64,000 bases of DNA from Promethearchaeota archaeon Loki_b31 (GTDB lineage Archaea; Asgardarchaeota; Lokiarchaeia; Sigyniarchaeales; SOKP01): NCBI GenBank assembly GCA_005222975.1, contig NJBI01000007.1:1-64000 (forward strand), in the 5' to 3' direction. The notes under the pieces were generated by a model that was not told the origin of the DNA, made no database searches, and saw nothing but the letters and a program-made list of their open reading frames with translations. A program made the translations under genes and the position numbers. Below are positions 4,278-36,031 of this stretch, piece by piece (within the stretch, counting starts at the first letter, position 1; the number at the start of each line of letters is the position of its first letter).

Positions 4278-5588
4278 CTAATACTTATTTTTCAATCTTT
4301 CCATAAAAGGTTCTACACTTTTTTTGACTTGTTCTATGTTTTCGCCTATTTTTTTGAAATTAATAACTATTGATGGTATATTTAATTCAGTTTTCATTTT
4401 ATCCTTTAATGTATCGTATGTTTTTGATATTGAAGGGCACCCAAATACTTGGTTGAAGATTAAACCATCTATGTTCAATTTCTTTGCTGCTGCTAAATAT
4501 GAATTCGTCATATTTTCTTTATTGCATCCAATTCCTTTTGTTGATGAGTTCAATAGAAAACGAGAGTAATCTTCAATGGGATCGGAATTTTTTGATAAAG
4601 GGATTTCTTCCAATAAACCTAGTAAGTCCCAATCAGCATATATTATCCTTCCACCCAATTTATAAATAATTTCATGTACTTCTGGTTCCCACCCTTGGTA
4701 CATTGGGGCAAATAGCACCCTTGGCATGTGAGAAACATCCATTCCTATACCTTTTTTGATCCTCTCTCTCATTTCTTTAACTAATTGACTCATATTATTT
4801 AAGTATCTTTGAGCGTTAGAATTATAATCTTGAAATGTTATTGTTAGAAGCGCTAGAATTTCCGCAAAGGATGCAGGATTACAAGGATAGAAATTTGAAG
4901 TGCTGATCTCATAAAGAATTGTTTTATAAAATCGCTTTACCTGGTTTCCTATTCGGAATTGTTTTTGTAAGCTATTATCTGTGACAAAATTTCCAGTTAT
5001 ACCCTCTAAATCACTGATCCCCCTTTTTACACTATTTACCATCTGTTCTAGCGCCTTATTTTCATTTTCTGGGTTTTTAGGAGGAACCTCAATCGTTATT
5101 TGATTAGGAACTGTTGTTTTTAACGATTCAGAAAACTTATTCCATTCACCACAACGCATAGCGAAGTTAAGATTAGCGTCTAAGTTTTTTCCCTTTGATA
5201 AATGCATTCCATAAAGAGCGTTAATTCCATAACACAATTCAGAAGGAACGCCATTGTTAACACCTAATTCGTACATTTCATTATATTTACTATGAATAGA
5301 TGTAATAACATCTTCAAGAATTTTATCAACTATTTTTAATACATCAAATTGACGAGCGAAATCTAGAAATTTTGATGTTAAACTCCAACCTAACACACTA
5401 GTGGCGGAATTTAACATTATTAAGTACTTATTAACCTCAAACGATTCCATCCGAATTGGAAAAACTGGAATCCCTCCAACGGCAAAAGCTAAATCGGGGA
5501 ATCCTAAGGCAACTGAAATTAATTTTTTCTTTTCTTTAAACTTTTTCTTCTTTAGATACTCTCTGCCTGTTAAAAAATTATAAGCCAT
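4278..5588 (-). CDS. 2-hydroxyacyl-CoA dehydratase / benzoyl-CoA reductase subunit family (HgdB-like)
   Basis: Full-length similarity to the 11522..12877 product (FYPCNPASFAEILALL, FAPMYQGWEPEVHEIIYKLGGRIIYADWD, FGCPS). Confidence 0.82.
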   Translation of the reverse strand: MAYNFLTGREYLKKKKFKEKKKLISVALGFPDLAFAVGGIPVFPIRMESFEVNKYLIMLNSATSVLGWSLTSKFLDFARQFDVLKIVDKILEDVITSIHSKYNEMYELGVNNGVPSELCYGINALYGMHLSKGKNLDANLNFAMRCGEWNKFSESLKTTVPNQITIEVPPKNPENENKALEQMVNSVKRGISDLEGITGNFVTDNSLQKQFRIGNQVKRFYKTILYEISTSNFYPCNPASFAEILALLTITFQDYNSNAQRYLNNMSQLVKEMRERIKKGIGMDVSHMPRVLFAPMYQGWEPEVHEIIYKLGGRIIYADWDLLGLLEEIPLSKNSDPIEDYSRFLLNSSTKGIGCNKENMTNSYLAAAKKLNIDGLIFNQVFGCPSISKTYDTLKDKMKTELNIPSIVINFKKIGENIEQVKKSVEPFMERLKNKY

Positions 5589-6063: not shown

Positions 6064-7050
6064 ATGACTAAGGAAAAAATAAAAATTTGTGTACTTGAGA
6101 AAAAACGAGGAAATTTTTCAATACAAGAGAAATTTGCTAAAAGCGAAAATATTATCGATACAACTAATCAAGAAGTAGAACATCATTTAAGTGCTTTAAA
6201 TGAAGCGGGTTATGATGTAAAAATATTAAAATGGAATGACAATATAATTTCTGATTTAAAAAGTCTTGACATTGATATCGTATTTAATGTATCCAGCATT
6301 GTTGAAACAGCTATTTTAGAAGAATTAGAGATACCTTATGTAGGGTCTGATATTTTTGGATGCGTTATAGCAACCGATAAGGTTCTTACTAAAGATTTGT
6401 GGCTTAAAAAAGGATTACCAACATCACCTTATATTTTAGCAAGATCAAAAGAGGATTGTGAAATTTTTAAGAAAAACAAGCGTTTTGATTATCCTTTATT
6501 TATAAAACCCTCTCAAGGGAGAGGAAGTTCTGGAATCGACGAATCCTCACTTATCTGTTCATATAACGAATTAATTAAAGGAGTTGAAAAAAGATTAAAC
6601 ACAATAAATCAACCTGTTCTTATTGAAAAATTTTTAAAAGGTAGGGAAATAACATGTGGAATTATTGGTAATGGAAATCAGATTAAAGCCTTACCTTTAT
6701 TAGAAATAATACACAAGGAAAAGGAAAAATTCTTGACATTTAATAAAAAAGAGTTAGATGACGATAAATTCCAATGCCCTGCAAAATTAACTCCGAAACA
6801 GTCTAAAGAATTACAGAAATTAGCTATTTCAGCATTTCAAGCGATAAATCTTAGAGATTATGGTCGTGTAGACATGATCTTATCAGAAGAAGGTCCTTTT
6901 TTATTAGAAATAAATTGTTTTGCAGGATTAATGTGTACACCAAAAGATAAACCTCATAGTTACATGGGCTTTATGGCAATTGCAGAAAACAAAAAAAGTA
7001 GTGAATTCTTAGATGAAATTATAAAAGAAGCATTAAAAAGAATTGGATAA
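6064..7050 (+). CDS. D-alanine--D-alanine ligase-like ATP-grasp enzyme
   Basis: KDLWLKKGLPTSPYI, YPLFIKPSQGRGSSGID, VLIEKFLKGREITCGIIG, LRDYGRVDMIL, PFLLEINCFAGL. Confidence 0.85.
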   Translation: MTKEKIKICVLEKKRGNFSIQEKFAKSENIIDTTNQEVEHHLSALNEAGYDVKILKWNDNIISDLKSLDIDIVFNVSSIVETAILEELEIPYVGSDIFGCVIATDKVLTKDLWLKKGLPTSPYILARSKEDCEIFKKNKRFDYPLFIKPSQGRGSSGIDESSLICSYNELIKGVEKRLNTINQPVLIEKFLKGREITCGIIGNGNQIKALPLLEIIHKEKEKFLTFNKKELDDDKFQCPAKLTPKQSKELQKLAISAFQAINLRDYGRVDMILSEEGPFLLEINCFAGLMCTPKDKPHSYMGFMAIAENKKSSEFLDEIIKEALKRIG

Positions 7051-7092
7051 CTTTCGTTCAAACTAAAAACAAATTGTATTATGTGAATTAAA

Positions 7093-8178
7093 ATGCCAAT
7101 ACTTGAAATAAATTTGAGAAAAATTAGACATAACGCAAAATTATTAAAGAATCTTTTAACTCAGCGAAATGTATCTATTATTGGAATTACAAAACTTGTC
7201 TTAGGAAACCCTACTATTGCAATGACGTTGGTTCAAGGAGGAATAGAGTATTTAGGAGATTCACGAATTAACAATATTATTAAAATGAAAAAAAATAATA
7301 TTAGAGCTCAATTTGTTTTAATTCGTATTCCAAGCATTACTGAAATTCCTCTTGTTGTTAAATACGCAAATTATAGCCTAAACTCAGAATTAAAGACCAT
7401 AAGAATGCTTTCAAATGAAGCCGTTAAACAAAAAAAGATACATAGTATAATTCTAATGGTAGATATGGGAGATTTAAGAGAAGGAATAAACATATTCAAT
7501 ATTGAATGTTTTGTCGAAGAGATTTTAAGACTAAAAAATATAAATTTAAGTGGAATTGGTACAAACTTCAAATGTTTTAGTGGTATCATCCCGACAGATG
7601 AAAATATGAATGAATTTTCTAAATTAGTATTTAGGATCAAAGATAAATTTGAATTGGAATTAGAATTTGTCTCAGGAGGAAATTCTGCAAATTTTAACTG
7701 GTTTAAATCGTGTAAAAACATTGGTGAAATAAATAATTTTAGAATTGGGGAAGCTATGTTTCTAGGAAAAGAAACAATAAATTATGAACCAATTCCAAAT
7801 CTTTATATAGACGCTTTTAAGTTAATAACAGAAATTGTTGAATTAAAACAAAGATCTGTAATCCCCAAAGGGATTATTGTATCAAATGCATTTGGGGAAA
7901 GTGTCCAAACTTACCATAAAAAAATTAACAACGGAAAAAAAAGCGATATAATTAGAACACAAGCACTTTTAAATATAGGTAGACAAGATATTGCAGTAAA
8001 TGGATTAAATCCGAAAGAAAGTATTAAAATTCTTGGAGCTTCAAGCGACTACTTAGTTGTAGATATAAGAGATAATCAATTTCAGATTGGACAAAAATTG
8101 CATTTTGATTTAAATTATGAAGCTCTTTTAAGAGCAATGACTAGTCCCTATATCCATAAGAAATTTATCGATATTTAA
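7093..8178 (+). CDS. PLP-dependent alanine/ornithine racemase family protein
   Basis: Fold-III racemase hallmarks: GITKLVLGNP (Lys), YLGDSRINNI, SLNSELKTIR, IILMVDMGDLREGI. Confidence 0.85.
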   Translation: MPILEINLRKIRHNAKLLKNLLTQRNVSIIGITKLVLGNPTIAMTLVQGGIEYLGDSRINNIIKMKKNNIRAQFVLIRIPSITEIPLVVKYANYSLNSELKTIRMLSNEAVKQKKIHSIILMVDMGDLREGINIFNIECFVEEILRLKNINLSGIGTNFKCFSGIIPTDENMNEFSKLVFRIKDKFELELEFVSGGNSANFNWFKSCKNIGEINNFRIGEAMFLGKETINYEPIPNLYIDAFKLITEIVELKQRSVIPKGIIVSNAFGESVQTYHKKINNGKKSDIIRTQALLNIGRQDIAVNGLNPKESIKILGASSDYLVVDIRDNQFQIGQKLHFDLNYEALLRAMTSPYIHKKFIDI

Positions 8179-8581
8179 ATTTACATGGGTTTATGATTTA
8201 ATTCTGAATGGTAACAAAACACATTTTAAAAGAAGAAAATGAAAATATGAATATTTTTTTTATTAGTAAGGATAATTTTTTTAATTTATTAAAAAAAGTT
8301 CTAAAAAACATCTACATAATTGTAGAATTAAAATTTGACTCTTAATCTACTTAAAAGACACAAAATTTTAAATAATATGATTGATATTATAAAGAATAGG
8401 AAATATTTTGCATTGAAACTTAAAACGGTTTAATTATATCAATATTAGAATATATTTTTATATCCACTAAATAAATTAGGGATATAATTAGAGTCAATGG
8501 TTATTTACTGTTATTATTCAATAAAATTTTAATAATCACTGTTCTACAATCCAGTAAGTTTCTTTATTACTTATTTCAATA

Positions 8582-10345
8582 TTGTTAAGGGTGATTAAGT
8601 CAATGAAGATGAATAACATTTATTTAGAGAGAAAAATAAATAAAAGAATTTTAACTGCATGTATAGGACAATGCGTTCATGTAGCTGGTACATATAATTT
8701 CATTCAAATTTCAAAACAGTTAGGTTATAATAATCTATTTTTAGGACCTGCTACCCCTATTTCAATTGTTATCGATCAAATTAAAAAGTATGACCCTAAC
8801 ATTGTAGGGCTAAGTTATCGTTTAACGGCAGACACTGTTAGACCTTTACTAAATGAATTTTTCAAAAATTTTATAAGATTAGAGAATAAACCAAAAAAAT
8901 TATTTTTTGCTGGAACACCTGAAGTAGTTGAGATTGCAAGAAAATATGAAGGGTTCGATGAATTTTTTGTTGGAGGGGAATCAAAATTTGAATTAATTTC
9001 TATCTTGAGAAATGAGAAAGTAAAATCAGAAAGTAAAACAGAAATCCCTATGGACATTATTTCTCGAATACGATGGAAGAAACCTTATCCTGTAATTAGA
9101 GCGCACTTTGGATTACTTAATTTCAATGAGACAATAGAAGGAATAAAAGAAATTGCTAAAGCTAAAGTCTTAGATGTTATTTCAATTGCGCCCGATCAAA
9201 ATACGCAAGAAAATTATTTCCACCCTGAAAATCAAGATAAAGAATTATCTGGAGCGGGCGGGGTTCCTTTGCGCACTCAGCAAGATTTCGAGAAGCTCCA
9301 TCAAGCAAGATTAACCGGAAACTATCCGATGTTAAGGATATATGCTGGAACACGCGATTTCATTAAATTAGGAAAATTGTATCGAGATACAATTCAAAAT
9401 GCTTGGGCGGCAATTCCTATTTTTTGGTTTAATCAAATGGATAGTAGGGGGCCTTTAACTTTAAAAGATTCGATTAAACAACATCTAAACGCAATAAAGT
9501 GGCACGGAAAGCACAATATTCCCGTTGAAATAAACGATCCACATCATTGGAGCCTTCGAGATTCTCCTGATGCTATAGCTGTTGCTGATATGTATTTATG
9601 TGGAATTATAGCCAAAAAATTAGGCGTCAAAAATTTTATAGCACAGTATATGTTTAATACACCTCCATCAAGTTCACTTGATATGGACTTAGCAAAAATT
9701 CTCGCTAAAGATGAGTTACTTCAAACGCTAGCCAATGAGAACTTTACGATAATTAAGCAAGTTCGGACGGGAATAGCAAGTTTCCCATTAGATTTGGATA
9801 AAGCAAAAGGACAGCTTGCTATTGCGACATTTGTTCAATTAGCTATTAGACCAGACATTGTTCATGTAGTTAGTTCTTCTGAAGCTAGTCATGCAGCTCG
9901 TCCAGAAAACATAATAGAAAGTTGTAAAATAGTGGATCAAGTTATAGATAAAATTTATTCCAGTAAAATTAACATTATAGATAAAAAAATTGAGGAAAGG
10001 AAAGAAGAATTAATAAGACAAGCCAAATGGATAGTTAATTTAATACCTCATTTAACAAAAAATGAAGATGAAACGAAAAGTCCATATACCAATTATGAAG
10101 TATTAAGTCGACTCGTAGAATATGGTATATTTGATGCCCCACATTTAAAAAACAATAAATTTGCGTTGGGTAAAATTAAAACCAAAGTAATTAACGGTGC
10201 TTGTTATTCGTGGAATGAATCTCAGCAAAAAATTTACGATGAAATTGAAAGAATAAAAGACATTATTTTTAATAGCCCATTTAAAAATTTTTCAGATTCA
10301 TTACAACAAAAAGAAAAATCCATCACAAAGGTGATGGATGAATGA
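8582..10345 (+). CDS. B12-binding domain fused to glutamate-mutase-epsilon-like catalytic barrel
   Basis: N-term B12 fold (GQCVHVAGTYN, GLSYRL, FAGTPE..GFDEFFVGGES); C-term VEYGIFDAPHLKNNKFALGKIKTKVINGACYSWNE resembles the MutE C-terminus. Confidence 0.7.
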   Translation: MLRVIKSMKMNNIYLERKINKRILTACIGQCVHVAGTYNFIQISKQLGYNNLFLGPATPISIVIDQIKKYDPNIVGLSYRLTADTVRPLLNEFFKNFIRLENKPKKLFFAGTPEVVEIARKYEGFDEFFVGGESKFELISILRNEKVKSESKTEIPMDIISRIRWKKPYPVIRAHFGLLNFNETIEGIKEIAKAKVLDVISIAPDQNTQENYFHPENQDKELSGAGGVPLRTQQDFEKLHQARLTGNYPMLRIYAGTRDFIKLGKLYRDTIQNAWAAIPIFWFNQMDSRGPLTLKDSIKQHLNAIKWHGKHNIPVEINDPHHWSLRDSPDAIAVADMYLCGIIAKKLGVKNFIAQYMFNTPPSSSLDMDLAKILAKDELLQTLANENFTIIKQVRTGIASFPLDLDKAKGQLAIATFVQLAIRPDIVHVVSSSEASHAARPENIIESCKIVDQVIDKIYSSKINIIDKKIEERKEELIRQAKWIVNLIPHLTKNEDETKSPYTNYEVLSRLVEYGIFDAPHLKNNKFALGKIKTKVINGACYSWNESQQKIYDEIERIKDIIFNSPFKNFSDSLQQKEKSITKVMDE

Positions 10346-11448
10346 GATTCTGCGTTATTGGAGCAGGAAACGGTGGCCGAGCGTTTGCGGCATATTTATC
10401 GTCAAAAGGATATCCTGTAAATCTATATAATCGCTCATATACCAGAATTTATGACATCAAAAAGAAAGGAGGAATAAAAGCAAAAGGGAAGTTAAAAGGC
10501 TTTTTCCCAATTGATCTGATTACACAAAATCTAAATTTGGCAGTTAAGGATGTAGATATTATTTTAATAGTAACTCCTGCTTCAGCACATATAAGTATTG
10601 CAAAAAACATTGCACATCTTTTAACAAACGATCAGATAATATTGTTGAATCCAGGTAGAACTTTTGGAGCTGTAGAGTTTAGAAGTATAATAGAAAAGGA
10701 AAGGGGGAATCTCCCTGTTTTTATTGCTGAAACCCAAACATTACTTTTTACATCAAGACAATTGAAAAAAAATGAGGTTCAAATTCTTACAATTAAGGAT
10801 TCTGTTGATTTTTCGGCTTTTCCAGAGAAGCATACGTTTTTCATTAGTGATACATTGAGAGATGTTTTTCCCCAAATGAATCCTAGTGATAATTATCTGC
10901 AAGTTACATTAAATAATATGGGGATGTTATTGCATCCAACTCTCTCATTATTGAATGCGAGTGCTATGGATTATGGAAGAAAGTTCAATTTTTATGCACA
11001 AGGGGCATCTATACATACTTGTGAAATTCTTGAGACTCTTCAAATGGAATTCAGAAAGATTTTTGAAAAGTTAAATTTAAAACAAATAAATTTTTGTGAA
11101 TGGGTGGAGAAATCTTATGGATTTAAAGCAAACAGTATCTATAAAGCTATTCAAAAAATAGAAGCATATAAAAATATTGTTGCTCCAAAAGAATTAATAA
11201 CTAGATATTTCACTGAAGATGTTCCAACTGGACTTGTACCTATGGCGTCATTAGGAGAATTCTTAGAAATTTCTACACCTATAATTGATTCAATCATAAA
11301 TTTATCTTCGATTTTATGTGGAACTGATTTTAAAAAAGAGGGAAGAAACATTATGAACTTAAAATTGGCTAACTATATAACAAAACAAATGAAAGGAGAA
11401 GATTTGTTTGGAATAAAAAAAAGTTCAGAAGCACAAATCAGTACTTAA
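10342..11448 (+). CDS. NAD/NADP octopine/opine dehydrogenase family protein
   Basis: MRFCVIGAGNGGRAFAAYLSSKGYPVNLYNRS Rossmann; NNMGMLLHPTLSLLNA catalytic His region; ATGA overlap with the upstream gene. Confidence 0.85.
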   Translation: MRFCVIGAGNGGRAFAAYLSSKGYPVNLYNRSYTRIYDIKKKGGIKAKGKLKGFFPIDLITQNLNLAVKDVDIILIVTPASAHISIAKNIAHLLTNDQIILLNPGRTFGAVEFRSIIEKERGNLPVFIAETQTLLFTSRQLKKNEVQILTIKDSVDFSAFPEKHTFFISDTLRDVFPQMNPSDNYLQVTLNNMGMLLHPTLSLLNASAMDYGRKFNFYAQGASIHTCEILETLQMEFRKIFEKLNLKQINFCEWVEKSYGFKANSIYKAIQKIEAYKNIVAPKELITRYFTEDVPTGLVPMASLGEFLEISTPIIDSIINLSSILCGTDFKKEGRNIMNLKLANYITKQMKGEDLFGIKKSSEAQIST

Positions 11449-11521
11449 ATTTGTTTTACTTTATATTAAACTTTAATTTCTTCCAAATTAAGGAGTTATA
11501 TCTAAAATCTTTATTTTTTAA

Positions 11522-12877
11522 TTATTTAAACATTTCCATAAAGGCCCCGAGCCTTGTCTTCATTTGATCGATGCTTTCTCCAATTTTATTAAAGGTAATT
11601 GCAGTTGTTGGTATTTCAAGCTCGCGTCTTACTTTCTCTCTCAGCATTGTATAACAATTTGAAACAGAATGACATCCAAATAATTGAAAAAATATAAGAC
11701 CATCGGCATTTAGTTTTTTTGCCACTCTCAAATATGAGTCAGTTAATGTGTCGTTATCACAGCCAATACCTGCTACTGTTGCATTCAAAAGAAACCGAGC
11801 GTATTCTTCGACAGGATTTAAATGACTATCCATGGGTATTTCATCTAAGAATCTTATTACTTCCCAGTCAGCATAAATCGCTCTCCCGCCTAGTTCATAT
11901 ATAATATTGTGGGTTTTTGGTTCCCATCCTCCGAATATGGGCGTTACAAAAATACGTGGCGTTTTAGACACATCCATTCCAACTCCCTTTCTTATTCTTT
12001 CCCGCATTTCGTCTACGAGTGAAATTAAATTATCCCTATATCGTATCGAATTAGAATTATAATCTTGAAATGTAATACTTAATAAAGCTAATATTTCACT
12101 AAATGTTGCTGGATTACACGGATAAAAATCAGAAGCACTAATCTCGTAGATTATTGTTTTATAAGAATTTTTTATTTGATTACCAATTTTAAATTGCTCT
12201 CTCAATTGATTATCCGTTATTGTATTGCCCGTTAAATTCTCAAATTCTCTTATGGCGCTCGATACATTATCAGTTAGAATTTCCAAAGCATTTCCAATAT
12301 TTCTGGGAGGAATATCAATCCATATTTGCTTTGGGTCTTGATTGATTGCTTTTAAGGATTCCATATATTTATTATACGCGCTACATCGAATTGTAACGTT
12401 GAGACAGGCATCTAAATTACGACCTTTGGAAACATGCGCACCAACTAAACTTTTCAACCCAAAACAGAAGTCACTTGAAATTCCATTCTCAATTCCAAGA
12501 TCGTACATATCGTTGTATTTTTTGTTAATCGTGTCAATTACATCCTCAATTATTTCGTCAACAATTTTACTGATTTCAGATATTCCAAGTTTTTTAACAA
12601 AACTTAAGAAATTAGAAACATTATTCCAGCCAAAAAAACTAGACGCCGAACCTAAGTAAGCGAGGTAATTACTTATTTCAAAAGTGTGCATCCTTATCGG
12701 AAACACAGGTACAGCACCTGCCGCGAAGGCTAAGTCTGAAAAAGGTAAAGAGATACCTACTAATTTCTTTTTCTCTCGGAACTTTTTCCTTTTTAGGTAA
12801 TTACGACCTGCCAAAAGATTGTAAGCAATTCTTAGTACAGAGCTAAAAGTTATTATTTCGTCAGCAATTAAACTCAT
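11522..12877 (-). CDS. 2-hydroxyacyl-CoA dehydratase subunit (HgdB-like)
   Basis: Family motifs YPCNPATFSEILALL, GIGCDN, FFQLFGCHS; 4-nt overlap with the upstream partner subunit. Confidence 0.85.
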   Translation of the reverse strand: MSLIADEIITFSSVLRIAYNLLAGRNYLKRKKFREKKKLVGISLPFSDLAFAAGAVPVFPIRMHTFEISNYLAYLGSASSFFGWNNVSNFLSFVKKLGISEISKIVDEIIEDVIDTINKKYNDMYDLGIENGISSDFCFGLKSLVGAHVSKGRNLDACLNVTIRCSAYNKYMESLKAINQDPKQIWIDIPPRNIGNALEILTDNVSSAIREFENLTGNTITDNQLREQFKIGNQIKNSYKTIIYEISASDFYPCNPATFSEILALLSITFQDYNSNSIRYRDNLISLVDEMRERIRKGVGMDVSKTPRIFVTPIFGGWEPKTHNIIYELGGRAIYADWEVIRFLDEIPMDSHLNPVEEYARFLLNATVAGIGCDNDTLTDSYLRVAKKLNADGLIFFQLFGCHSVSNCYTMLREKVRRELEIPTTAITFNKIGESIDQMKTRLGAFMEMFK

Positions 12878-14013
12878 TTCATCATCTCCAAATACGCTTC
12901 TATTCTTGTTGAGAGCTGCCCTCGATTAGCTCGAGAATAATCTCTCTCTAAATTCAATATTTGTATTCCTTTTTCTTGTAACTCATTTTTCAAGAAAGAA
13001 GCCATTAACGATATGTGGTCGCAAAATTTAATAATATGGTTGAATACGCCTAATTTTTTTCCAGTTTTTTTTATGTAGTTCTTAGAATAATTTTCAATCG
13101 AAGATACTTTTTGTTGCAAGAAATTAGGTACTGAATGGTCTCCATACTTGTTATTTTTAAATCTCAGCACCAATAAATCTAAAGGATCTTTGTTTGAATT
13201 TATCGAGTCATCATCTATAACTTGTGAATAATAGTGATTTCCAATCCATGTATCGAAATAAACAATATTTCCCCCTCCTTCTTCGATTAAATCTACTAAG
13301 TTATCGTTAATGAAGATCGAACATCCCGTAAATAAAATATCTTTAGATAAACCAAGGTTTTGAGGTGGACTGGTTTTAACTTCTTCAATGTACTTTTCTA
13401 AATCAGGTAGGAATGTTGGACCATACAATATTGCTTTTTGAATTATTTTTAATTTTTCTGAGCCCAAAATCTCTAAATCATTAACTTGCGATAATTTTTT
13501 TTTAAAATCATTATACTTCTTAATACTCTCAGATAATTTTTCGTCAGAAATTTTTTCTCCTATAATATCTTCAAGCTGCTCCTTTAAATTTTGTAGTTCT
13601 AACTTGAAATATTTTAAACTACTTTCATCCGTCATATACGGTACATAAAAATTCAAACGAGAGATGTTAAAATATTTAGTAATTATTTCTGAAGCACAAA
13701 CATCTGATACGCAGTGGTTTGAAACAATAAAATAATCCACCAAATCTAAAAATCTGAAGTCATTTGGTTTAGTAGAAAATAATCCAATACATGATTGAGC
13801 AAATGCACATGTAGAAGGAGGTAAAAAATCGTGACTAGCTTCCATCAACTCGTCATTCCCTCCAAACATCATCCTTAAAGGAAAGAAACCCGCTGCATCT
13901 ATCAACTCTTCGGGGATATTATCGTGAGCCAAAAAAGCAATAATTTTAACGCCTTCTTGCTTTTTTTCTTTAAGAAATAACGAAAACTCTGGGAGAAGAA
14001 TGGTATCGGCCAT
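12874..14013 (-). CDS. 2-hydroxyacyl-CoA dehydratase subunit (HgdA-like)
   Basis: DNIPEELIDAAGFFPLRM, PSTCAFAQSCIG, TGCSIFINDN. Confidence 0.85.
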   Translation of the reverse strand: MADTILLPEFSLFLKEKKQEGVKIIAFLAHDNIPEELIDAAGFFPLRMMFGGNDELMEASHDFLPPSTCAFAQSCIGLFSTKPNDFRFLDLVDYFIVSNHCVSDVCASEIITKYFNISRLNFYVPYMTDESSLKYFKLELQNLKEQLEDIIGEKISDEKLSESIKKYNDFKKKLSQVNDLEILGSEKLKIIQKAILYGPTFLPDLEKYIEEVKTSPPQNLGLSKDILFTGCSIFINDNLVDLIEEGGGNIVYFDTWIGNHYYSQVIDDDSINSNKDPLDLLVLRFKNNKYGDHSVPNFLQQKVSSIENYSKNYIKKTGKKLGVFNHIIKFCDHISLMASFLKNELQEKGIQILNLERDYSRANRGQLSTRIEAYLEMMK

Positions 14014-14122
14014 ATTATCAGCTTTAGTAGTATTAAATTATCTATCTGAAAAGACTTAATTCCTTATAAAAGTTTACCGATTTAAAATATAGATAAAAAT
14101 ATTAAAATTAAATGAAATTAAT

Positions 14123-14911
14123 TTAATTAGAATTGTTTTCTTGAGCTATTAATGCTGCACCAATAGCCCCCGTTAGTTGAGGAAATTTAGGTGTTTCGAT
14201 TTCATATCCAAGTTCGTCTTCTAAATATTTTTTTACACCCGGGTTATTAGCGACTCCACCACAGAAAATTAATTTAGGTCCAACTCCAATACGTTTTGCC
14301 ATTCCAGCAACTCTTCTCGCAATTGATTTATGTATGCCACTTGCAATCTCTTCTTTAGAGGCTCCTCTCGCGAATAAACTTATTACTTCGCTCTCAGCGA
14401 AGACTGTACACGTGGAACTTATTGAGGCTGACTTGTTTGTTTTTAAGGCCAAGTTTCCAAATTGATCAATAGGAACTTCCAACGCGTGAGCCATGACTTC
14501 CAAAAATCGACCCGTTCCTGCTGCGCATTTGTCATTCATTTGAAAGTCAATAACATTCCCCGTTTTCGTAGATATTACAATTGCTTTACTATCTTGACCC
14601 CCAATATCTATTACGGAATGAGCATCTGGAAAGAAATATTGCACGCCCTTAGCGTGAGCTGTAATTTCAGTCACTCGATCGTCTGCTATGTCTATTGTGT
14701 TTCGACCATAACCAGTACTCATAACAAAAACATCCGCTCTTTTCAGATTATTTTTTCCTAGCATGTTATTAAATAAGTTATGACCTATTTTTTTAAAGTC
14801 GTAAGTAGAGCGTTCTGTGCGATGATCAATCAGTTTTCCATCGTTTAAAAGCACTATCTTTGTTGCTAAGGAACCAATATCTATACCAATAAAATTCTTC
14901 AATTTAATCAT
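14123..14911 (-). CDS. Acyl-CoA dehydratase activase (HgdC-like, ATPase with [4Fe-4S])
   Basis: FIGIDIGSLATK, SVIDIGGQDSKAI, NDKCAAGTGRFLEVMA, SSTCTVFAESEVISL. Confidence 0.95.
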   Translation of the reverse strand: MIKLKNFIGIDIGSLATKIVLLNDGKLIDHRTERSTYDFKKIGHNLFNNMLGKNNLKRADVFVMSTGYGRNTIDIADDRVTEITAHAKGVQYFFPDAHSVIDIGGQDSKAIVISTKTGNVIDFQMNDKCAAGTGRFLEVMAHALEVPIDQFGNLALKTNKSASISSTCTVFAESEVISLFARGASKEEIASGIHKSIARRVAGMAKRIGVGPKLIFCGGVANNPGVKKYLEDELGYEIETPKFPQLTGAIGAALIAQENNSN

Positions 14912-16826: not shown

Positions 16827-17483
16827 GTGATTTATAAAATGTCATCTAATAGGAAAATTAAAGAAGAAATAATTGCCTTACTCATAGATCATGTTCGGAT
16901 TATTTACTCTATTATTAGCGACATGGGCGTGTATTACACCACCTGGGCAGAAGACTTTGAGGCAAATAAAAAAAGTTTAGAAAAGAAAAAAAGTAAAATG
17001 CAATTATCAGAAGAAGAAGGTGACGAGCTAAAAATTCGCTTAATACAGAACTTTTCAGAGGCAGAAGCTTTTAATCTCGGAGATTACGTAGCACTAGTGT
17101 TGAAGATGGATAATGTTATTAATTATCCCCTCGAATTTGTCGATATGTTAACAAAAATTCGCTTAACTGGTAAAAGTGCAGATGAGATTAAGAAGAAATA
17201 CCACAAGTTAATAAACCAAATTATGGAAATGGCTGGTATCTTGAAAACTGCGATAAAAAACTTAAGGGATAATCCGGATAAAGTCTTTGATAACACGACT
17301 ACAATTCATGAACTTGAATCTGAAATTGACAAAACTTACAGGCAATTTCTTGAGTTTTTATATTCTAATGTTGAAGACATAAGAACTTTACTACGTATCA
17401 GGGATAGTATTGTGCTACTGGAGCAGATGGCGGACCGTATCCACGACATTTCAGACCTTATGAGAATTTTAATTTATAGTTAA
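16827..17483 (+). CDS. DUF47/PhoU-like protein
   Basis: Helical ORF with ..LESEIDKTYRQFLEFL...LLEQMADRIHDISDLM. Confidence 0.7.
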   Translation: MIYKMSSNRKIKEEIIALLIDHVRIIYSIISDMGVYYTTWAEDFEANKKSLEKKKSKMQLSEEEGDELKIRLIQNFSEAEAFNLGDYVALVLKMDNVINYPLEFVDMLTKIRLTGKSADEIKKKYHKLINQIMEMAGILKTAIKNLRDNPDKVFDNTTTIHELESEIDKTYRQFLEFLYSNVEDIRTLLRIRDSIVLLEQMADRIHDISDLMRILIYS

Positions 17484-20400
17484 TTTAATAAATTAATTGC
17501 TTGATAAATTAATTTTCTTAATTGATCTTTACTTATATTAATATTGATATAAATACTTAATATTTTTTTAGAAATTTTAGTAGGACTTGGAGTTTCATTA
17601 CGATTGAGTGGTTCTGAAATATATTGAATTATATGTATAAGCATTTTTAAGTATTGAATTATGGGATATGTAAAGTTTTGATCTTGTAAAGATATTCTTA
17701 ATCTTAAAAACTCGGGAATATCAACAGATACTAAATCTTTAAGAATTTGATCATTATCAAAATAAAAATTGTTATCTTTAAGGATTTTTAATATTCGGTT
17801 ATAAATTATTTCTCTTAAGTCGGCAGGAAAAATTGAAATAACCCAATTTCCATTTTTGTTTTTAACAATAATCTGATTAAATTTTTTAATATTTTTATAC
17901 CAAAGATCGAAATCAAGCTTCTGACTAATCATATATATTTTAATATGTTTTTTAATAGTTTCAGGTTTAGGATTGATACCATATTTTAATTTTATATAAT
18001 TTCTAATCAGTTCTAAATTACCTAATATTGTAAATAGTTTTTTAAAAATAATAGCGAATTTTTCTTGATATGGAAATTGTTTAAATGTTAAAGAATCTTG
18101 GATTGCATTCTCAATAGTAGAATCATTAATAAGATATCCATATTTAAGACAAGTTTTTAAAATAAATTGTTCAAACTCTTTTGAATACAATAATACTTTT
18201 TTATCGTTTTTTATCATATAATCATTAACATCGGCAAATACTTTTTTAGATTTTATTTCATTAGATAAGCTTATTAAAATTATACCAATATAATTTCTTC
18301 TGTAAATCCATTTTTTAGGTTTAATAATTTCAATAAACTTTCTAATGTGGTTTTTTTTTGAAATTTTAACATAATATTTAACATCCGTTCTTTTATCTTC
18401 ATATATTTTAGTTGTCTCAATATTTAAAATATTACACATATTTTTAAAATCTTCTACTAAAGGTTTTGAGGAATTAGTGAAATCAATTTGAATATGCTTA
18501 GCTCGTTTTAAAACATAAATAGAACCATCTGTATCAAATAGACCTCTTAAACAACAAATTACTAAATTACGAGAATTTATGATTATTTTAGGTACAGACA
18601 CTTGATGTAAAACTTTATTTCCTTCAATTAACCCAAAAGACTCAAGCTCTTCAACAATTTCCTTTCCATAAATTATAAGTTGTATGCCTTTTGATACTTT
18701 TGAAGGAATGTAAGAAGGAGTTTTATGAAATATCTTTGTCATTAATTTTGAAACATAATCAACATAATCTGATTCATCAATTCGATTAAGAGTGATTGTT
18801 AAACCTATGTTAAAATTTAGATTGCCATCACCTAATATAATACCACACATTTCTGATAAAATCCCGTTCATTATAAGTCCTAATTTTTTATACGGATTTC
18901 TTTTTTTTAAAGGATGTATATTAAAATGTAAACGTATTTGGTCAATATGATGATGTCCTAAACCAGTTAAATTTTGAATGTCTACTAGTTTATCATATTC
19001 TTCGAATAGAATTAAATATATTGCTAAAATATATTTTTTGATCAATAGATCTTGCTTGCTTGTAAGATCGAGTAATAAAGATTTGTTATTTAAATTTTGA
19101 TAAACATTATTTATGATAATATCAAAAAACTCTTCTTTAGGATGGTTTAAACGAAAATTAAAAATGACTATTTTATTATTTTTTAGTATTGTATAAATAT
19201 TATTAAAAATCTTTTCTCTACAACTAACCCAATTATTAGCCATAAAGAATTTTACATATAAATTTTGACTTCCTATTAATTGAATTATTGTTTTTCTTAC
19301 TCTTTCTTGATTAAAATATTCAATTTTTTCTAATATCTCCTTATTAGAATATTTTTTCTTTCCCATTTTATGATAGTATTTTAATTGTTCAATGACGATT
19401 TTTTTCAATTCCTTAAATTTATCCGTGTTGGCAATTAATTTCTTCTTTTTAACTTGATTTTTAGTAGGGGTTTTCTCATTTTCTACAGCTTCAATAAGAT
19501 TAGAGATTTCTGAAGACCATTTAATCTGGATTTTTCCATTTTCTTGTTCTTTTCTTAACTCTTTATATTTCTGCGAAATGTGTTTAAAAAATTTGCTACG
19601 CACTCGAATAACGAAAAACCTGTTCATAAGTTCCCACAAATGATTATAAAAATAATCTTTAAAAGTCCGAATATTTGCTAATAATTCTAAATGGATCGGT
19701 CCTAAACCCTGTAGTCTTTCTGTTAAGGATTTTAATCTATTCTTTTCTATTTCAGTAAGTTTTTCGTATTGAGACTTTTCATATAATTCCAAAAACTTTC
19801 GAGTCAAATCCTTGAACTTGTTATAACTCTCAAGGGCTTTTTTTAACTCGGATTTAAGCTCAGCGTTGCATTCTTCCTCAGAAGACTCTTTTATCCATTG
19901 TTTAAGGGTTGTTTTCCAACTCTCTTCTTCAATTTCTTTTATTTTTTCACTTTCACTTTTAGAATTTTTAATCTTTTCCGATCCTAATTCTCGTTGCTCT
20001 AACCATTGGCTATAACCATTTGTTTTTTTTTTAGAATATATAGGTCTTCTGCCCGTTTCTAGGCGATATAACTCTTGAAGATGTTCGGTTTCCTCTTCGT
20101 CCGATTCTTCACTTACTAGCTTTGTACTTTCCTCAAGGAAATCTTTATTAGCTTCGGATTCGCTTTCGATAGCATCTAATTCTGGTTTACAAACTTCTAA
20201 ATTTTCTTTATTCTCAACATTTTTATTTGAATCTTGTTCGTTAATCTCTAAATCGTGTTTTTTAAGCTTTTCATTCACAATCGATTCTTGATCTTTTTCA
20301 ATTATTTTTTCTAATTTCTCTTCAAACTTAGTTGTTTCTATGGCTTCCTCTACTCTCGCATCTATCTCTTCTTGCGATTCCCCTTGTTGAACCAATTTCT

Positions 20401-21565
20401 CTTCTAATTCAACAGCCTGCTCTACTAGATCTACCCTATCCAGATTTTCTTTTAGATCCTCTTCGCTCGCTTCGTCTTCGTGATCAACTAGCTTTAATTT
20501 CTCTTGTTGTAGCTCTTCGTATAATTTTTCTGCGTTTTTAAGCGTTTCGTACATCTCTTCCGCTTCGTGCATTACTTCTTCTATTTCTTCAAGGGGTTTT
20601 CCTTCTCGATCTAATTTATCGCGAATTTCCCATAAATATTCAAATTCCTCTGTACTAGTAATTTTCTTAGATGCATCCTCTTCTTCGAGTTCATCGCTCT
20701 TATTACCACTTTCTTGGTCACCCTTTAATTCCTCTGTTACTTCTTGCCTAAGTTCTTCTGTTTCTTGTTCCTCTATACTATTTTGATCGTTTACTACCTC
20801 TTTTTCCTTTAATTTTTCATAATATTGCTCAGCATAATACGCCGCATTTTCTTGTTCAGCTTGTGGTTCAACGTTCTCGTCTTCAGCTTTTAATTCTCTG
20901 GCATGTTCGGCTAATTCTTCAACATCCTTTATGAATTCAATCTCATCGGTATTTACAATCGGTTCCGTATCGTCTTGATATTCTTCTGGGCGAATCTCGA
21001 TTTCTTCTTCTTGTTCTTGGTGTTCCATATGATCTTCTATTTCACTAGTTAAAACTGTAGAAGTTGATTGAGAATCAATATTTTCGTTGTAATATTCCAC
21101 AGGCTCTTCCTCTTGGTGTTCCTCGTTTCGAATGTCATTATTGTCCTTCTCATTTTTTTCTCCCTCACCATGCAAATCTTCGCTCCAATTAATCTCGTCC
21201 CATATAGTTTTTTCACGCTCACCTTGCTTGTCTTCGCTCCAATCAATATCATCCCATATAGTTTTTTCTCGCTCACCATGTTTATCTTCGCTCCAATCAA
21301 TATCATCCCATATAGTTTTTTCTCGCTCACCATGTTTATCTTCGCTCCAATCAATATCGTCCCATATACTCTCTTCTTTTTCTTCTGGTAATTCTTGATC
21401 TAAATCACCTTCAAATTCCCCACTTTTAATTTGATCGTCTTCAAAATCTTTTTCTTCCTCTAATTCAGAGTCATCATTAATGTCATCTTCTTTTTTCTCT
21501 TCATCTTCTCCTTTCTGTTCGTCTAAATATCCCTTATCATCTTCAACTTCGCTTCCAAAATCCAT
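17480..21565 (-). CDS. Giant acidic/coiled-coil protein with C-terminal LAGLIDADG-type domain
   Basis: 4x IWDDIDWSEDKHGEREKT-type repeat; MCGIILGDGNLNF and CLRGLFDTDGSIYV match LAGLIDADG motifs P1/P2. Confidence 0.75.
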   Translation of the reverse strand: MDFGSEVEDDKGYLDEQKGEDEEKKEDDINDDSELEEEKDFEDDQIKSGEFEGDLDQELPEEKEESIWDDIDWSEDKHGEREKTIWDDIDWSEDKHGEREKTIWDDIDWSEDKQGEREKTIWDEINWSEDLHGEGEKNEKDNNDIRNEEHQEEEPVEYYNENIDSQSTSTVLTSEIEDHMEHQEQEEEIEIRPEEYQDDTEPIVNTDEIEFIKDVEELAEHARELKAEDENVEPQAEQENAAYYAEQYYEKLKEKEVVNDQNSIEEQETEELRQEVTEELKGDQESGNKSDELEEEDASKKITSTEEFEYLWEIRDKLDREGKPLEEIEEVMHEAEEMYETLKNAEKLYEELQQEKLKLVDHEDEASEEDLKENLDRVDLVEQAVELEEKLVQQGESQEEIDARVEEAIETTKFEEKLEKIIEKDQESIVNEKLKKHDLEINEQDSNKNVENKENLEVCKPELDAIESESEANKDFLEESTKLVSEESDEEETEHLQELYRLETGRRPIYSKKKTNGYSQWLEQRELGSEKIKNSKSESEKIKEIEEESWKTTLKQWIKESSEEECNAELKSELKKALESYNKFKDLTRKFLELYEKSQYEKLTEIEKNRLKSLTERLQGLGPIHLELLANIRTFKDYFYNHLWELMNRFFVIRVRSKFFKHISQKYKELRKEQENGKIQIKWSSEISNLIEAVENEKTPTKNQVKKKKLIANTDKFKELKKIVIEQLKYYHKMGKKKYSNKEILEKIEYFNQERVRKTIIQLIGSQNLYVKFFMANNWVSCREKIFNNIYTILKNNKIVIFNFRLNHPKEEFFDIIINNVYQNLNNKSLLLDLTSKQDLLIKKYILAIYLILFEEYDKLVDIQNLTGLGHHHIDQIRLHFNIHPLKKRNPYKKLGLIMNGILSEMCGIILGDGNLNFNIGLTITLNRIDESDYVDYVSKLMTKIFHKTPSYIPSKVSKGIQLIIYGKEIVEELESFGLIEGNKVLHQVSVPKIIINSRNLVICCLRGLFDTDGSIYVLKRAKHIQIDFTNSSKPLVEDFKNMCNILNIETTKIYEDKRTDVKYYVKISKKNHIRKFIEIIKPKKWIYRRNYIGIILISLSNEIKSKKVFADVNDYMIKNDKKVLLYSKEFEQFILKTCLKYGYLINDSTIENAIQDSLTFKQFPYQEKFAIIFKKLFTILGNLELIRNYIKLKYGINPKPETIKKHIKIYMISQKLDFDLWYKNIKKFNQIIVKNKNGNWVISIFPADLREIIYNRILKILKDNNFYFDNDQILKDLVSVDIPEFLRLRISLQDQNFTYPIIQYLKMLIHIIQYISEPLNRNETPSPTKISKKILSIYININISKDQLRKLIYQAINLLN
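21165..21380 (-). repeat. Four 54-bp tandem repeats inside a CDS
   Basis: CGCTCC anchor at 21181, 21235, 21289, 21343 (54-nt spacing); encodes IWDDIDWSEDKxGEREKT; outer limits approximate. Confidence 0.85.
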
Positions 21566-26736: not shown

Positions 26737-27441
26737 GTGAAAGAGAGATTTGGAAAACTAAGTTTGTATTTAATAAATCAAGCTGAAAATGAGATAAAGA
26801 AGATCAATCAACAATCCCTTTTTCAAATGGCAGAAGTTAGAAAAAAAGCTAGGGAAAGAACTTCAGAAAGCTCTTTAAAATTGAAAGCGCATTTTAACGA
26901 AACATACAATAAACTATTAAATAATTCTCTATCTTCTTATCTCTTGAAAATTAAAGAAGAAGTATTGAAATCAAAAAACAAGTTAATGTTAGAACTTATT
27001 TCAGATTTAAAAGACTTAATAAAAGACAAAATAAAAAATAATTATTCGAGCTACATTATCCTTTTACTAAAAAATCTTGAAAATATCAAGCATTTTGTAG
27101 ATAAACCACCGGAGATTATCATTCACTTAAATTCAATAGATTTTAAATATTTCAGCAATAATATGGAAAAGATTGAAAGTATATTAAGAAATAAAGTAAA
27201 TTTAATCAAGTCAAAAGAAGAATTTACGGGAGGTTTTAAGTGTGTAATTATGACCGGACATTTATCTTACGATTATACGATTAAAAATCAATTAAAGAAG
27301 AGCACATCGATTATAGAAATTGAGTTTTCAAAGATTTTTTCTGACTCCGAGCCTGATATTAAAGCTCTAGAAAATAATTATATACAATTTATCAAAAATC
27401 AAAAATTAGCTGTAAACGAATATTTAAAGAAATATGAATGA
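26737..27441 (+). CDS. A/V-type ATP synthase subunit E
   Basis: Coiled-coil N-terminus, EFTGGFKCV C-terminal region; operon position. Confidence 0.8.
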   Translation: MKERFGKLSLYLINQAENEIKKINQQSLFQMAEVRKKARERTSESSLKLKAHFNETYNKLLNNSLSSYLLKIKEEVLKSKNKLMLELISDLKDLIKDKIKNNYSSYIILLLKNLENIKHFVDKPPEIIIHLNSIDFKYFSNNMEKIESILRNKVNLIKSKEEFTGGFKCVIMTGHLSYDYTIKNQLKKSTSIIEIEFSKIFSDSEPDIKALENNYIQFIKNQKLAVNEYLKKYE

Positions 27442-29275
27442 AACTAACGAAAAAATTAAGTCCGGATATATCTCATCTATAAACGGTTCCTTAATAGAAA
27501 TAAAAGGCTTAGAAAACTATGTACGGCTAAATGATTTAATTAAGGAGTCTAAACATAAAATTTTAGGTGAAGTAATCCAAATTTATTCAGATCATGTTAC
27601 TGTTCAATGTTTTGAAAATACTTCTAATTTAAAATTAAATGAAGAGGTTATTAGTTTACAAGAACCCTTATCAATGGAATTAGGTCCTGGTTTATTAGGA
27701 AATATCTTTGATGGTATTCAAAGACCATTGGAAGCAACCTTTTTGAGTTCTGAAGGCGGAGGGTTTTTAAAGAGAGGCGTTGATTTACCCGCTTTATCAA
27801 GAACGAAAGATTGGCATTTTAAACCAGTAAAAAAGATAAATGATTATGTAAGTACGGGGTATGTGGTTGGAACCGTTCAGGAAACAGAATTTATTGAACA
27901 TAAAATTATGATTCCATTAGGAATTTCCGGAAAAATAACTTATATTGCAAAGGAAGGAGAATATACAGTCAGTGATGAAATTTACCGCTTAAAAAATGGT
28001 TCCAAAGAAAAATCGTTTAATATGATTCAAAAATGGCCAATCACCAAAAATAGGCCTTATAAAGAGCGAGGCTTTCCTAATGAACCACTAATTACGGGTA
28101 TGAGGGTAATCGATCTATTATTTCCAATAGTAAAGGGAGGGACAGTTGCCGTTCCGGGAGGTTTTGGAACGGGCAAAACGGTAATCCAACAATCCCTAGC
28201 AAAATGGTGTAACGCAGATATAATTATTTTTGTTGGATGCGGGGAGCGTGGGAATGAGATTGCAGATGTCTTAAAACAGTTTTCTGAAATAACAGATCCA
28301 AAAAGTGGACGCCCGTTATTAGAACGAATTGTTATCTTAGCTAATACATCTAATATGCCCGTATCTGCGCGAGAAGCAAGTATATTTTCTGGAGTTACAA
28401 TTGGGGAATATTATAGAGATATGGGGTATGATGTTGCAGTTTTAGCAGACAGTACTTCAAGATGGGCAGAATCATTACGGGAAATATCAGGGTTATTAGA
28501 AGAAATGCCAGCCGAAGAAGGATATCCCGCTTATTTACCCTCTAAAATTTCTAGTTTTTATGAAAGAGCCGGTGTTGTTAAGATATTGGGAGAAAAAGAT
28601 TCTGGAAAAGAGAAATTCGGGTCTATAACAATTATTGGTTCAGTATCACCGCCTTCAGGAGATTTCAGTGAGCCTGTTACTTCAACTACAAAGCGTTTTG
28701 TTCAAGCTTTTTGGGCATTAGATGCGAGTTTAGCATATTCTAAACATTATCCTGCGATTAATTGGTTAAATTCATATTCAAAATATCCTGAATTCATCTC
28801 AGATTGGTGGTTTGAAAGAGATATTTATTGGCCTGAGATAGATATAGATTGGTACGAGTGTAGAAAACAAATAAATAGCCTCCTATCTCAAGAAAACGAA
28901 CTAAAAAATGTCACCCAATTAGTTGGTGAAGAAAACTTACCAGAAAATCAACAATTTATCCTATTCATTTCAAAATTGATTAGAAATGGTTTATTAATTC
29001 AAAATGCCTTTGATTCTATAGATTGTTTTACAGATGTTAAAAAATTAATTGGACTAGTAAAACTCATTCTATTACTATTTAAAGAGGGCAAACAACTCTT
29101 AAAGCAAGGTTTTCTAATTGAAGATATCAAAGAACTCGATGTTGTAAATGATATTCTTAGGATTTGCCGTTCTGTTCCTAATAATAACTTTGATCAAATA
29201 GAAAAATTAAGAAAGAAAATGCTAAACGAAATAGAGTCATTAAAATTAACATATGGTGTTTTTAGGAAAAAATGA
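27434..29275 (+). CDS. A/V-type ATP synthase catalytic subunit A (copy 1, canonical)
   Basis: [46 protein letters not shown]. Confidence 0.97.
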
Positions 29276-34201: not shown

Positions 34202-36031
34202 ATGGTCACAGAAACAAATAATTCTAATTTGGGTTTTATATCTGCTGTTAATGGATCATTAGTGGAGGTTAAAGGATTAGAAAATCAGGTTCGGCTTCAT
34301 GATTTAATTAAGATTAGTAACTATAACATTATTTGTCAGGTAATTCAAATCTACTCGGATCATGTAATAGCCCAATCTTTTGAAAGTACTAATAGTATAA
34401 AATTAAACGATAAAGCAATTAATCTTAACGAACCTTTATCGATGGAGTTAGCACCAGGTTTATTAGCAAATGTTTTTGATGGAATTCAGAGACCTTTAGA
34501 TCTTACTTTCAGCCACTTTAAAGAAGGAAGATTAAGAAGAGGCCTTGAATTTCCTTCTTTATCAAGGACAAAAAAATGGCATTTTATTCCATCGAGAAAA
34601 ATAAATGGTTCTTTAAGTACTGGAGATGAAATTGGGACCGTTCAAGAAACATCCTTTTTTAAACATAAAATAATGATTCCTCCTGAAAATTCTGGTATTT
34701 TATCGTTTATTGTTGACGAAGGTGATTATACAATTATCGATGAGATATATACCTTAAGAAAGGAGAATGTAGATAAATCTTTTAGTATGTTACAAAAATG
34801 GCCAGTCACTATGAGCAAACCTTATAGCGAAAAAAATCAACCTAGCGAACCTTTACTAACTGGCTTGCGTATTGTAGATCTATTGTTTCCTGTAGCAAAA
34901 GGTGGTACTTTTGCGGTTCCAGGAGGGTTTGGAACTGGTAAAACAATTATTTCACAACATATAGCTAAATTTTGTAACGCAGATGTCGTTCTATATATAG
35001 GATGCGGGGAGCCTGGCAATGAGATTGCAAATTTTCTAAAACAATTCGCGGAAACTATTGATCCTAAAACGGGAAGACCTTTATTAGAACATATTGTTCT
35101 TATTGCCAACACTTCAAATATGCCCGTGTCTGCTCGCGAAGCAAGTCTTTTTTCAGGTATTACAATCGCAGAATATTATAGAGATATGGGGTACGATGTT
35201 GCCGTTGTAGCAGATAGTATTTCAAGATGGGCAGAATCTTTAAGAGAGATTTCAGGGCTATTAGAGGAAATGCCTGCTGAAGAAGGTTATCCTGCGTATT
35301 TGCCATCGAAACTATCAAGTTTTTTTGAGCGAGCTGGTGTTATTACAACTTTAGGATGTGATGCTTATGGTAGAAAAAAAAAAGGATCCATAACAATCAT
35401 AGGATCGATATCTCCACCAGCGGGAGATTTTAGCGAACCGGTTACCGCAGCTACTAAACGTGTTGTTCAGGGGATTTGGGCTTTAGATCCTAAATTAGCA
35501 TATCTAAAACATTATCCTGCAATTAGTTGGATCAGTTCATACTCCAATTATCCTGAGTATGTAGCAGAATGGTGGCGCGAGAGAGACATTGTTTGGCCTG
35601 AGATAAATTTAAACTGGTTTGAGTGTAGAAAACAAGTAAATGAGATTTTAGCAAAAGAAAACGAGTTGAAATATCTTATCCAGCTACTAGGACTAAAAAA
35701 TTTAGCTGAAGATCAAAGGTTAGAAATTTTTACGGCAAATCTAATAAGAAATGCAATTTTAATTCAAAATGCTTTCAACGTAGTAGATAGTTATACGAGT
35801 AGTAGAAAATTGTTAGGGTTAGTAAAGGTAATACTTTTATTATATAATAAAAGTAGATCACTCGTAAAACGAGGTTTTCTAATTGATGAGAAGAAGTGCG
35901 ATGAAGTTCTCATTGAGGTTATGAAAATTAGTCATTATGTTCCTAATGAAAATTTTGAACAAATTGAAGAGCTAAGGGATAAAATTAATAATGAATCTTT
36001 AGGTTTAGTTTTTAATGTTCATCGAAGATAG
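34202..36031 (+). CDS. Second A/V-type ATP synthase A subunit (divergent paralog)
   Basis: [10 protein letters not shown] but GCGEPGNE and [16 protein letters not shown]; full-length paralog of 27434..29275. Confidence 0.93.
   Translation: MVTETNNSNLGFISAVNGSLVEVKGLENQVRLHDLIKISNYNIICQVIQIYSDHVIAQSFESTNSIKLNDKAINLNEPLSMELAPGLLANVFDGIQRPLDLTFSHFKEGRLRRGLEFPSLSRTKKWHFIPSRKINGSLSTGDEIGTVQETSFFKHKIMIPPENSGILSFIVDEGDYTIIDEIYTLRKENVDKSFSMLQKWPVTMSKPYSEKNQPSEPLLTGLRIVDLLFPVAKGGTFAVPGGFGTGKTIISQHIAKFCNADVVLYIGCGEPGNEIANFLKQFAETIDPKTGRPLLEHIVLIANTSNMPVSAREASLFSGITIAEYYRDMGYDVAVVADSISRWAESLREISGLLEEMPAEEGYPAYLPSKLSSFFERAGVITTLGCDAYGRKKKGSITIIGSISPPAGDFSEPVTAATKRVVQGIWALDPKLAYLKHYPAISWISSYSNYPEYVAEWWRERDIVWPEINLNWFECRKQVNEILAKENELKYLIQLLGLKNLAEDQRLEIFTANLIRNAILIQNAFNVVDSYTSSRKLLGLVKVILLLYNKSRSLVKRGFLIDEKKCDEVLIEVMKISHYVPNENFEQIEELRDKINNESLGLVFNVHRR

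Follow-up and report, generated by a model that had tools for sequence, protein, structure and literature searches.

Encoded within a 64,000-nucleotide stretch of DNA from the Promethearchaeota archaeon Loki_b31 (contig NJBI01000007.1, positions 1 to 64,000; hereafter the window) are two overlapping genes that, almost beyond doubt, represent a real, co-conserved, and uncharacterised unit. The first (8582-10345, + strand) specifies Mut, a member of an uncharacterised family of adenosylcobalamin (AdoCbl) mutases in which a cobalamin-binding domain is fused to a MutE-like TIM barrel. The second (10342-11448, + strand) encodes Odh, an opine dehydrogenase of the CENDH type (N-(1-D-carboxylethyl)-L-norvaline dehydrogenase), which is ATGA-coupled to Mut. 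The TTG start codon of Mut at position 8582 is uncertain, and an ATG lies a few codons downstream. An earlier reading of the window, referred to here as the original prediction, did not recognise the combination of such a mutase with an opine dehydrogenase, and that judgement was borne out. No paper on a mutase with an opine dehydrogenase, or on methylaspartate mutase in Asgard archaea, was found in the open literature; subscription papers may hold earlier notice.

The surroundings of Mut were inspected at 119 loci of the family in which the protein is not fused to MutL (Asgards, Thermotogota, Bacillota, and others). Neighbours were called by simple open reading frame picking and BLAST, and related genomes enter the counts of loci and genomes as independent entries. 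Odh directly adjoins Mut in 108 of the 119 loci and is positioned no more than four genes away in 110. By lineage, the two genes are adjacent in 39 of 41 Asgard, 33 of 33 Thermotogota, 8 of 8 Thermoanaerobacterales, and 13 of 16 other Bacillota loci, and 4-bp overlaps are frequent. Mut comes first in Lokiarchaea, with Odh leading for the most part in bacteria and in some other Asgards; since the pair is still adjacent after reversal, the adjacency has survived rearrangement. Strong matches to Mut (E <1e-100) are present in 48 of 98 genomes of the Asgard phylum and in 62 of 101 Thermotogota (the phylum of Mesoaciditoga), and at 1e-60 matches occur in 47 of the 250 genomes sampled from Bacillota (the phylum of Fervidicola). 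The pair is carried by cultured Thermoanaerobacter, Thermotogota, and Prometheoarchaeum. At one locus of a marine archaeon (L123), genes for an ATP-grasp protein, Odh, Mut, another ATP-grasp protein, and a C26 hydrolase form a single overlapping operon.

The mutase and its relatives

The cobalamin-binding domain of Mut extends from approximately residue 20 to residue 140 and contains the motif C31-x-H33-x-x-G36 along with S78..L81, and the MutE-like TIM barrel runs from about residue 160 to residue 560. Mut scores 30 bits against the Pfam MutE model (cut-off 26.6), and its barrel aligns end to end with MutE (hhalign E 1.5e-6, 386 columns). The B12 domain of the window protein is not recognised by Pfam; that of the Thermoanaerobacter orthologue (L127) scores 51 bits against PF02310 (cut-off 32). 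A search of the PDB with Foldseek, using an AlphaFold2 model of Mut (pLDDT 89), gave glutamate mutase E as the best match (E 1.4e-17, query TM 0.55), followed by the ornithine and lysine aminomutases. Both features that define the glutamate-mutase fold group of AdoCbl-dependent mutases, a B12-binding domain with the xxHxxG cobalt-ligand motif and a TIM barrel, are present in Mut, and His 33 and Gly 36 are invariant in ∼150 sequences.

The closest solved fold is thus that of the glutamate mutase MutS/MutE (GlmS/GlmE) from Clostridium cochlearium, which likewise consists of a TIM barrel and a B12 domain. In that enzyme, glutamate is held by a claw of three arginines, R66, R100, and R149 (PMC9545868). 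According to the alignment, these are replaced in Mut by H175, Q209, and Y254, respectively, and E171 by an alanine, changes that are invariant or nearly so in the ∼150 sequences, including the MutL-fused relatives. Y177 and K326 of glutamate mutase are likewise exchanged, for tryptophan and valine, whereas E330 is kept as E434. The aspartate of the DxHxxG motif is usually a cysteine in the Mut family. Mut differs further in being a single fused chain whose partner is an opine dehydrogenase. Because all three claw arginines are replaced, Mut is not a glutamate mutase of the known type, and assignment as a classical glutamate mutase was ruled out on these pocket residues. Its score against the glutamate mutase E model TIGR01503 is 21.5 bits, below the cut-off of 390. 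The expectation that the mutase would lie outside the characterised families has held. Note that R173 and R252 of Mut are invariant and that each is positioned two residues before a replaced residue in the same strand, a placement which may point to a substrate that is larger or more deeply seated.

As with glutamate mutase, Mut is associated with the MutL reactivase in several lineages, either as a fusion or through an adjoining gene. The fused form, found in Atribacterota, Chloroflexota, Acetothermia, and others, is encoded beside a more distant Octopine_DH protein, and in one case a gene for a CobA-type adenosyltransferase adjoins it. Most active-site positions are common to the fused and unfused forms; pocket positions 198, 276, 282, and 359 differ, and thus the substrates of the two may differ as well. 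No match to PF13941, for the MutL/GlmL reactivase, was found in genome G000. A PduO-type adenosyltransferase was not found in the Asgard genomes tested, which is uninformative given that the CobA type was not searched there. One MutL-fused Mut in a Lokiarchaeota bin (L047/L074; JAGXNU010000199.1, genome G001) is 92-93% identical to Atribacteria sequences. This contig is probably mis-binned and a contaminant of that metagenome-assembled genome (MAG), and the gene was left out of the Asgard counts.

Dehydrogenase, ligases, and riboswitch

Odh scores 130 bits against Octopine_DH, and a profile search matched it over its full length to CENDH (PDB 1bg6; E 2e-112). The Rossmann domain, the Octopine_DH helical domain, and the conserved histidine and aspartate of the CENDH-type family are all present, with H198, R288, and D293 conserved in register with the Arthrobacter enzyme. 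On the basis of its sequence, Odh is a true relative of the opine dehydrogenases, and it is predicted to form an opine. Unlike CENDH and octopine dehydrogenase, it is nearly always paired with a B12 mutase.

Preceding Mut in the window are genes for a Ddl-like ATP-grasp ligase (6064-7050, + strand) and an Orr-like, pyridoxal phosphate (PLP) dependent racemase (7093-8178, + strand). The ligase scores 105 bits against Pfam Dala_Dala_lig_C and 150.7 bits against the Ddl model, below its cut-off of 243, and in a tree it falls outside the canonical D-Ala-D-Ala ligase clade. Across the 119 loci, a Ddl-like ligase is close to the pair in 30 and an AsnB-like amidotransferase in 19, with both at none (one-sided Fisher p 0.002, without correction for ancestry). 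The Ddl-like gene is located beside Odh-Mut in 19 of 33 Thermotogota loci, often with a 4-bp overlap, and in several Bacillota. In one Bacillota genome (L318/L321), a cyclic di-AMP (c-di-AMP) riboswitch, Odh, Mut, and Ddl occur in succession; this ligase is 51% identical to that of the window and groups in the same clade (support 100/99). A first ligase tree had suggested that the window ligase was unrelated to the module, a view that was overturned once the L321 ligase was added. The window ligase is a probable third member of the pathway.

Within the Asgards, Ddl and Orr adjoin Mut-Odh only in closely related genomes. The gap of ∼400 bp between the end of Orr (8178) and Mut makes it probable that Ddl-Orr is transcribed separately from Mut-Odh in the window genome. 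Orr travels with the window-type Ddl as its partner, and its link to Mut-Odh is indirect. Compact two-gene Ddl-Orr units lie in Asgard genomes of another family (L283, L286-L289) with no Mut-Odh nearby, and an Orr-like gene is also present at two MutL-fused Mut loci (L087, L091). The window neighbourhood resembles the clostridial ornithine fermentation (Orr, OraSE, Ord, OrtAB) in combining a PLP racemase with a B12 mutase, and the racemase is 37-43% identical to the Orr genes of such clusters. It scores 363 bits against the NCBIfam Orr model (NF040742), however, below the cut-off of 480, with no OraSE nearby; Mut is not OraE, as it has no PLP domain, and OraS, Ord, and OrtAB are absent. In genuine Orr clusters, Orr is accompanied by OraE-like and Or-4/MutL-like genes and there is no Mut-Odh pair. 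Ornithine fermentation was rejected as a frame for the window.

The c-di-AMP riboswitch RF00379 was found upstream of the pair in 22 bacterial genomes (79-117 bits, cut-off 38). It is directly upstream in all eight Thermoanaerobacterales loci of one set, and also in T. thermocopriae, Fervidicola, one Tissierellia genome, and further Bacillota; in one Chloroflexota MAG it directly precedes Mut. The genomes counted hold only one to five copies, and the single copy of the Tissierellia genome is the one at the pair. Genome G245 holds four further copies, located ahead of genes for TrkH/TrkA potassium uptake and cell-wall hydrolases. At L127 and L152, a promoter-like site, the aptamer, a terminator-like hairpin, and Odh follow one another, and two aptamers lie in tandem upstream of Odh-Mut at L190 and L191. 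Further Bacillota Odh-Mut loci exist without a detected riboswitch. c-di-AMP riboswitches are OFF switches, and an aminomutase gene that serves a known osmolyte is under the control of one of them (PMC9337991). The systems are alike in placing an amino-acid mutase under such a switch, but here the mutase is a B12 enzyme accompanied by an opine dehydrogenase and a ligase. No description of a c-di-AMP riboswitch target of the Mut-Odh type was found in open papers. A cobalamin riboswitch was also considered, and none was found in the loci searched.

Proposed pathway and its alternatives

Mut and Odh would be two enzymes of one biosynthetic pathway. To judge from its fold, motif, and homology, Mut would catalyse an AdoCbl radical rearrangement of the carbon skeleton of an amino acid or N-substituted amino acid. 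Odh, acting before or after Mut, would employ NAD(P)H to form or reduce a secondary-amine (opine-like) linkage, although its chemistry and direction are likewise read from the family, and the step may run in reverse. A separate ATP-dependent ligase, suggested by family and genetic linkage, would end the molecule with an amide bond; this role would fall to the Ddl-like ATP-grasp enzyme in the window, Thermotogota, and some Bacillota, and to the AsnB-like amidotransferase in others. The Ddl-like ligase of the window likely receives a D-amino acid from Orr. The product would be a neutral or zwitterionic solute, capped by an amide or peptide bond and most likely an organic osmolyte, a role suggested by the c-di-AMP riboswitch that governs the operon in many Bacillota. 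The assignment also draws on analogy with the neutral amide and peptide osmolytes that are known (PMC1224877). We consider the chances about even that Mut, Odh, and the ligase synthesise an amidated or peptidic osmolyte derived from an amino acid. More tentatively, and at somewhat less than even chances, three enzymes, namely an AdoCbl carbon-skeleton mutase of a new class, an opine dehydrogenase, and an amide ligase that is interchangeable, may make an undescribed compatible solute in Asgards, Thermotogota, and many Bacillota, under c-di-AMP control in the latter. The same division of labour is displayed in pyrrolysine biosynthesis by PylB, PylC, and PylD, namely a radical mutase, an ATP-grasp ligase, and a Rossmann dehydrogenase, with PylB being a radical SAM enzyme. 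Few AdoCbl mutase families are known, and one with an intact cofactor site and a remodelled pocket would represent a considerable gap in the knowledge of B12 biochemistry. Were the product an osmolyte, the riboswitch target would be explained, B12 would be tied to osmotic adaptation, and Asgard archaea would gain a testable stress metabolite.

Several observations weigh against an osmolyte pathway. Approximately 60% of the loci have no recognised ligase nearby, and the Ddl-Orr pair also occurs in five Asgard genomes without Mut-Odh beside it. No c-di-AMP riboswitch was found in the window, nor at any of the nine Thermotogota loci tested, and the five Asgard genomes tested gave no c-di-AMP cyclase (DAC); the osmotic link is thus shown in bacteria only, and the role in Asgards rests on homology. 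In addition, c-di-AMP riboswitches also control cell-wall genes. Finally, the operons of the MutL-fused form in Chloroflexota, Atribacterota, and others look catabolic, with genes for Opp-type ABC transporters, a D-glutamate cyclase-like protein, gamma-glutamyltransferase, a C26 gamma-glutamyl hydrolase, an amidohydrolase/deacylase, and an Orr-like racemase. Together with the active-site positions common to both forms, they would fit a module in which an imported compound (a D-amino acid, a gamma-glutamyl compound, or an opine) is degraded through rearrangement by Mut and oxidation by Odh with NAD+, the products passing to fermentation. Such a module is unlikely, however, for the recurrent neighbours in the unfused family of the window are ATP-consuming ligases rather than transporters, the four pocket positions differ between the forms, and a c-di-AMP riboswitch on such an operon would be unusual.

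The Ddl-like ligase, the Orr-like racemase, and the riboswitches on wall hydrolases in the same genomes might instead suggest that the module supplies peptidoglycan, or some other polymer of the wall, with an unusual building block, either a D-amino acid or an opine. That is decidedly improbable: the pair occurs widely among the Asgards, archaea established as lacking peptidoglycan, an AsnB-like ligase stands in place of Ddl at many loci, and the ligases lie outside the canonical Ddl clade. It is still harder to credit an opine metallophore or signalling molecule, in which Odh would make a staphylopine-type opine and the mutase alter its amino-acid part. Odh is indeed a true opine-dehydrogenase relative, and the Opp-type transporters beside the MutL-fused form belong to a family that includes metallophore importers, but neither a nicotianamine-synthase-like enzyme nor a metal regulator was seen to recur among the neighbours, and the riboswitch senses c-di-AMP, not metal. 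The original prediction had joined seven genes of the window into a single pathway of racemisation, B12 rearrangement, and oxidation, after which HgdABC would dehydrate a CoA thioester by a radical reaction. These genes are physically close in the window and its close relatives, and a thematic link is open through a published proposal in which the archaeal osmolyte beta-glutamate is derived by way of 2-hydroxyglutaryl-CoA dehydration (PMC1224877). The reaction order has no comparative support, however. HgdABC is convergent to Mut-Odh, adjoins it only in the close Lokiarchaea relatives of the window, and is not beside it in any other lineage examined; moreover, the genes of the 6.1-14.9 kb region include no recognised CoA-transferase or 2-hydroxyacid dehydrogenase. 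The anticipated conservation of the neighbourhood therefore extends to Mut-Odh and the Ddl-like ligase but not to HgdABC, and the seven-gene pathway is the least probable explanation of all. The biosynthesis of an opine or D-amino-acid product, offered originally as the alternative, fits better because an ATP-dependent C-N ligase recurs as the third partner and the riboswitch is of a class linked to osmotic genes and those of the cell wall.

Neighbouring genes in the window

All seven genes of the original prediction, which also include those for an HgdB-like HGD-D protein (11522-12877, - strand), an HgdA-like HGD-D protein (12874-14013, - strand), and an HgdC-type acyl-CoA dehydratase activase (14123-14911, - strand), are present at their coordinates and belong to the families named. 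The 4-nt overlaps of Mut with Odh (10342-10345) and of HgdB with HgdA (12874-12877) are likewise present. The two HGD-D proteins score well above thresholds, as does the activase (284 bits against TIGR00241, cut-off 125), and the components of a 2-hydroxyacyl-CoA dehydratase, two HGD-D proteins and an activase, are thus in place. HgdABC is a neighbouring module and not part of the Mut-Odh unit. Absent from the original prediction was a second HgdB-like HGD-D protein (4278-5588, - strand; 106 bits) of the same module. This third HGD-D protein is a paralogue of the HgdB-like protein encoded at 11522, and it may provide the convergent Hgd cluster with a second B-type subunit.

Elsewhere in the window, a 1361-residue open reading frame (17480-21565, - strand) carries acidic tandem repeats at its N terminus (IWDDIDWSEDKHGEREKT), together with a stretch resembling a LAGLIDADG-type endonuclease domain. 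Two similar genes, named from sequence as A/V-type ATPase A-subunit-like, are positioned on either side of one ATPase cluster (27434-29275 and 34202-36031). Tandem MEMO-like genes (AmmeMemoRadiSam B-type, also named from sequence) at 36796-37704 and 37736-38626 represent an apparent duplication.

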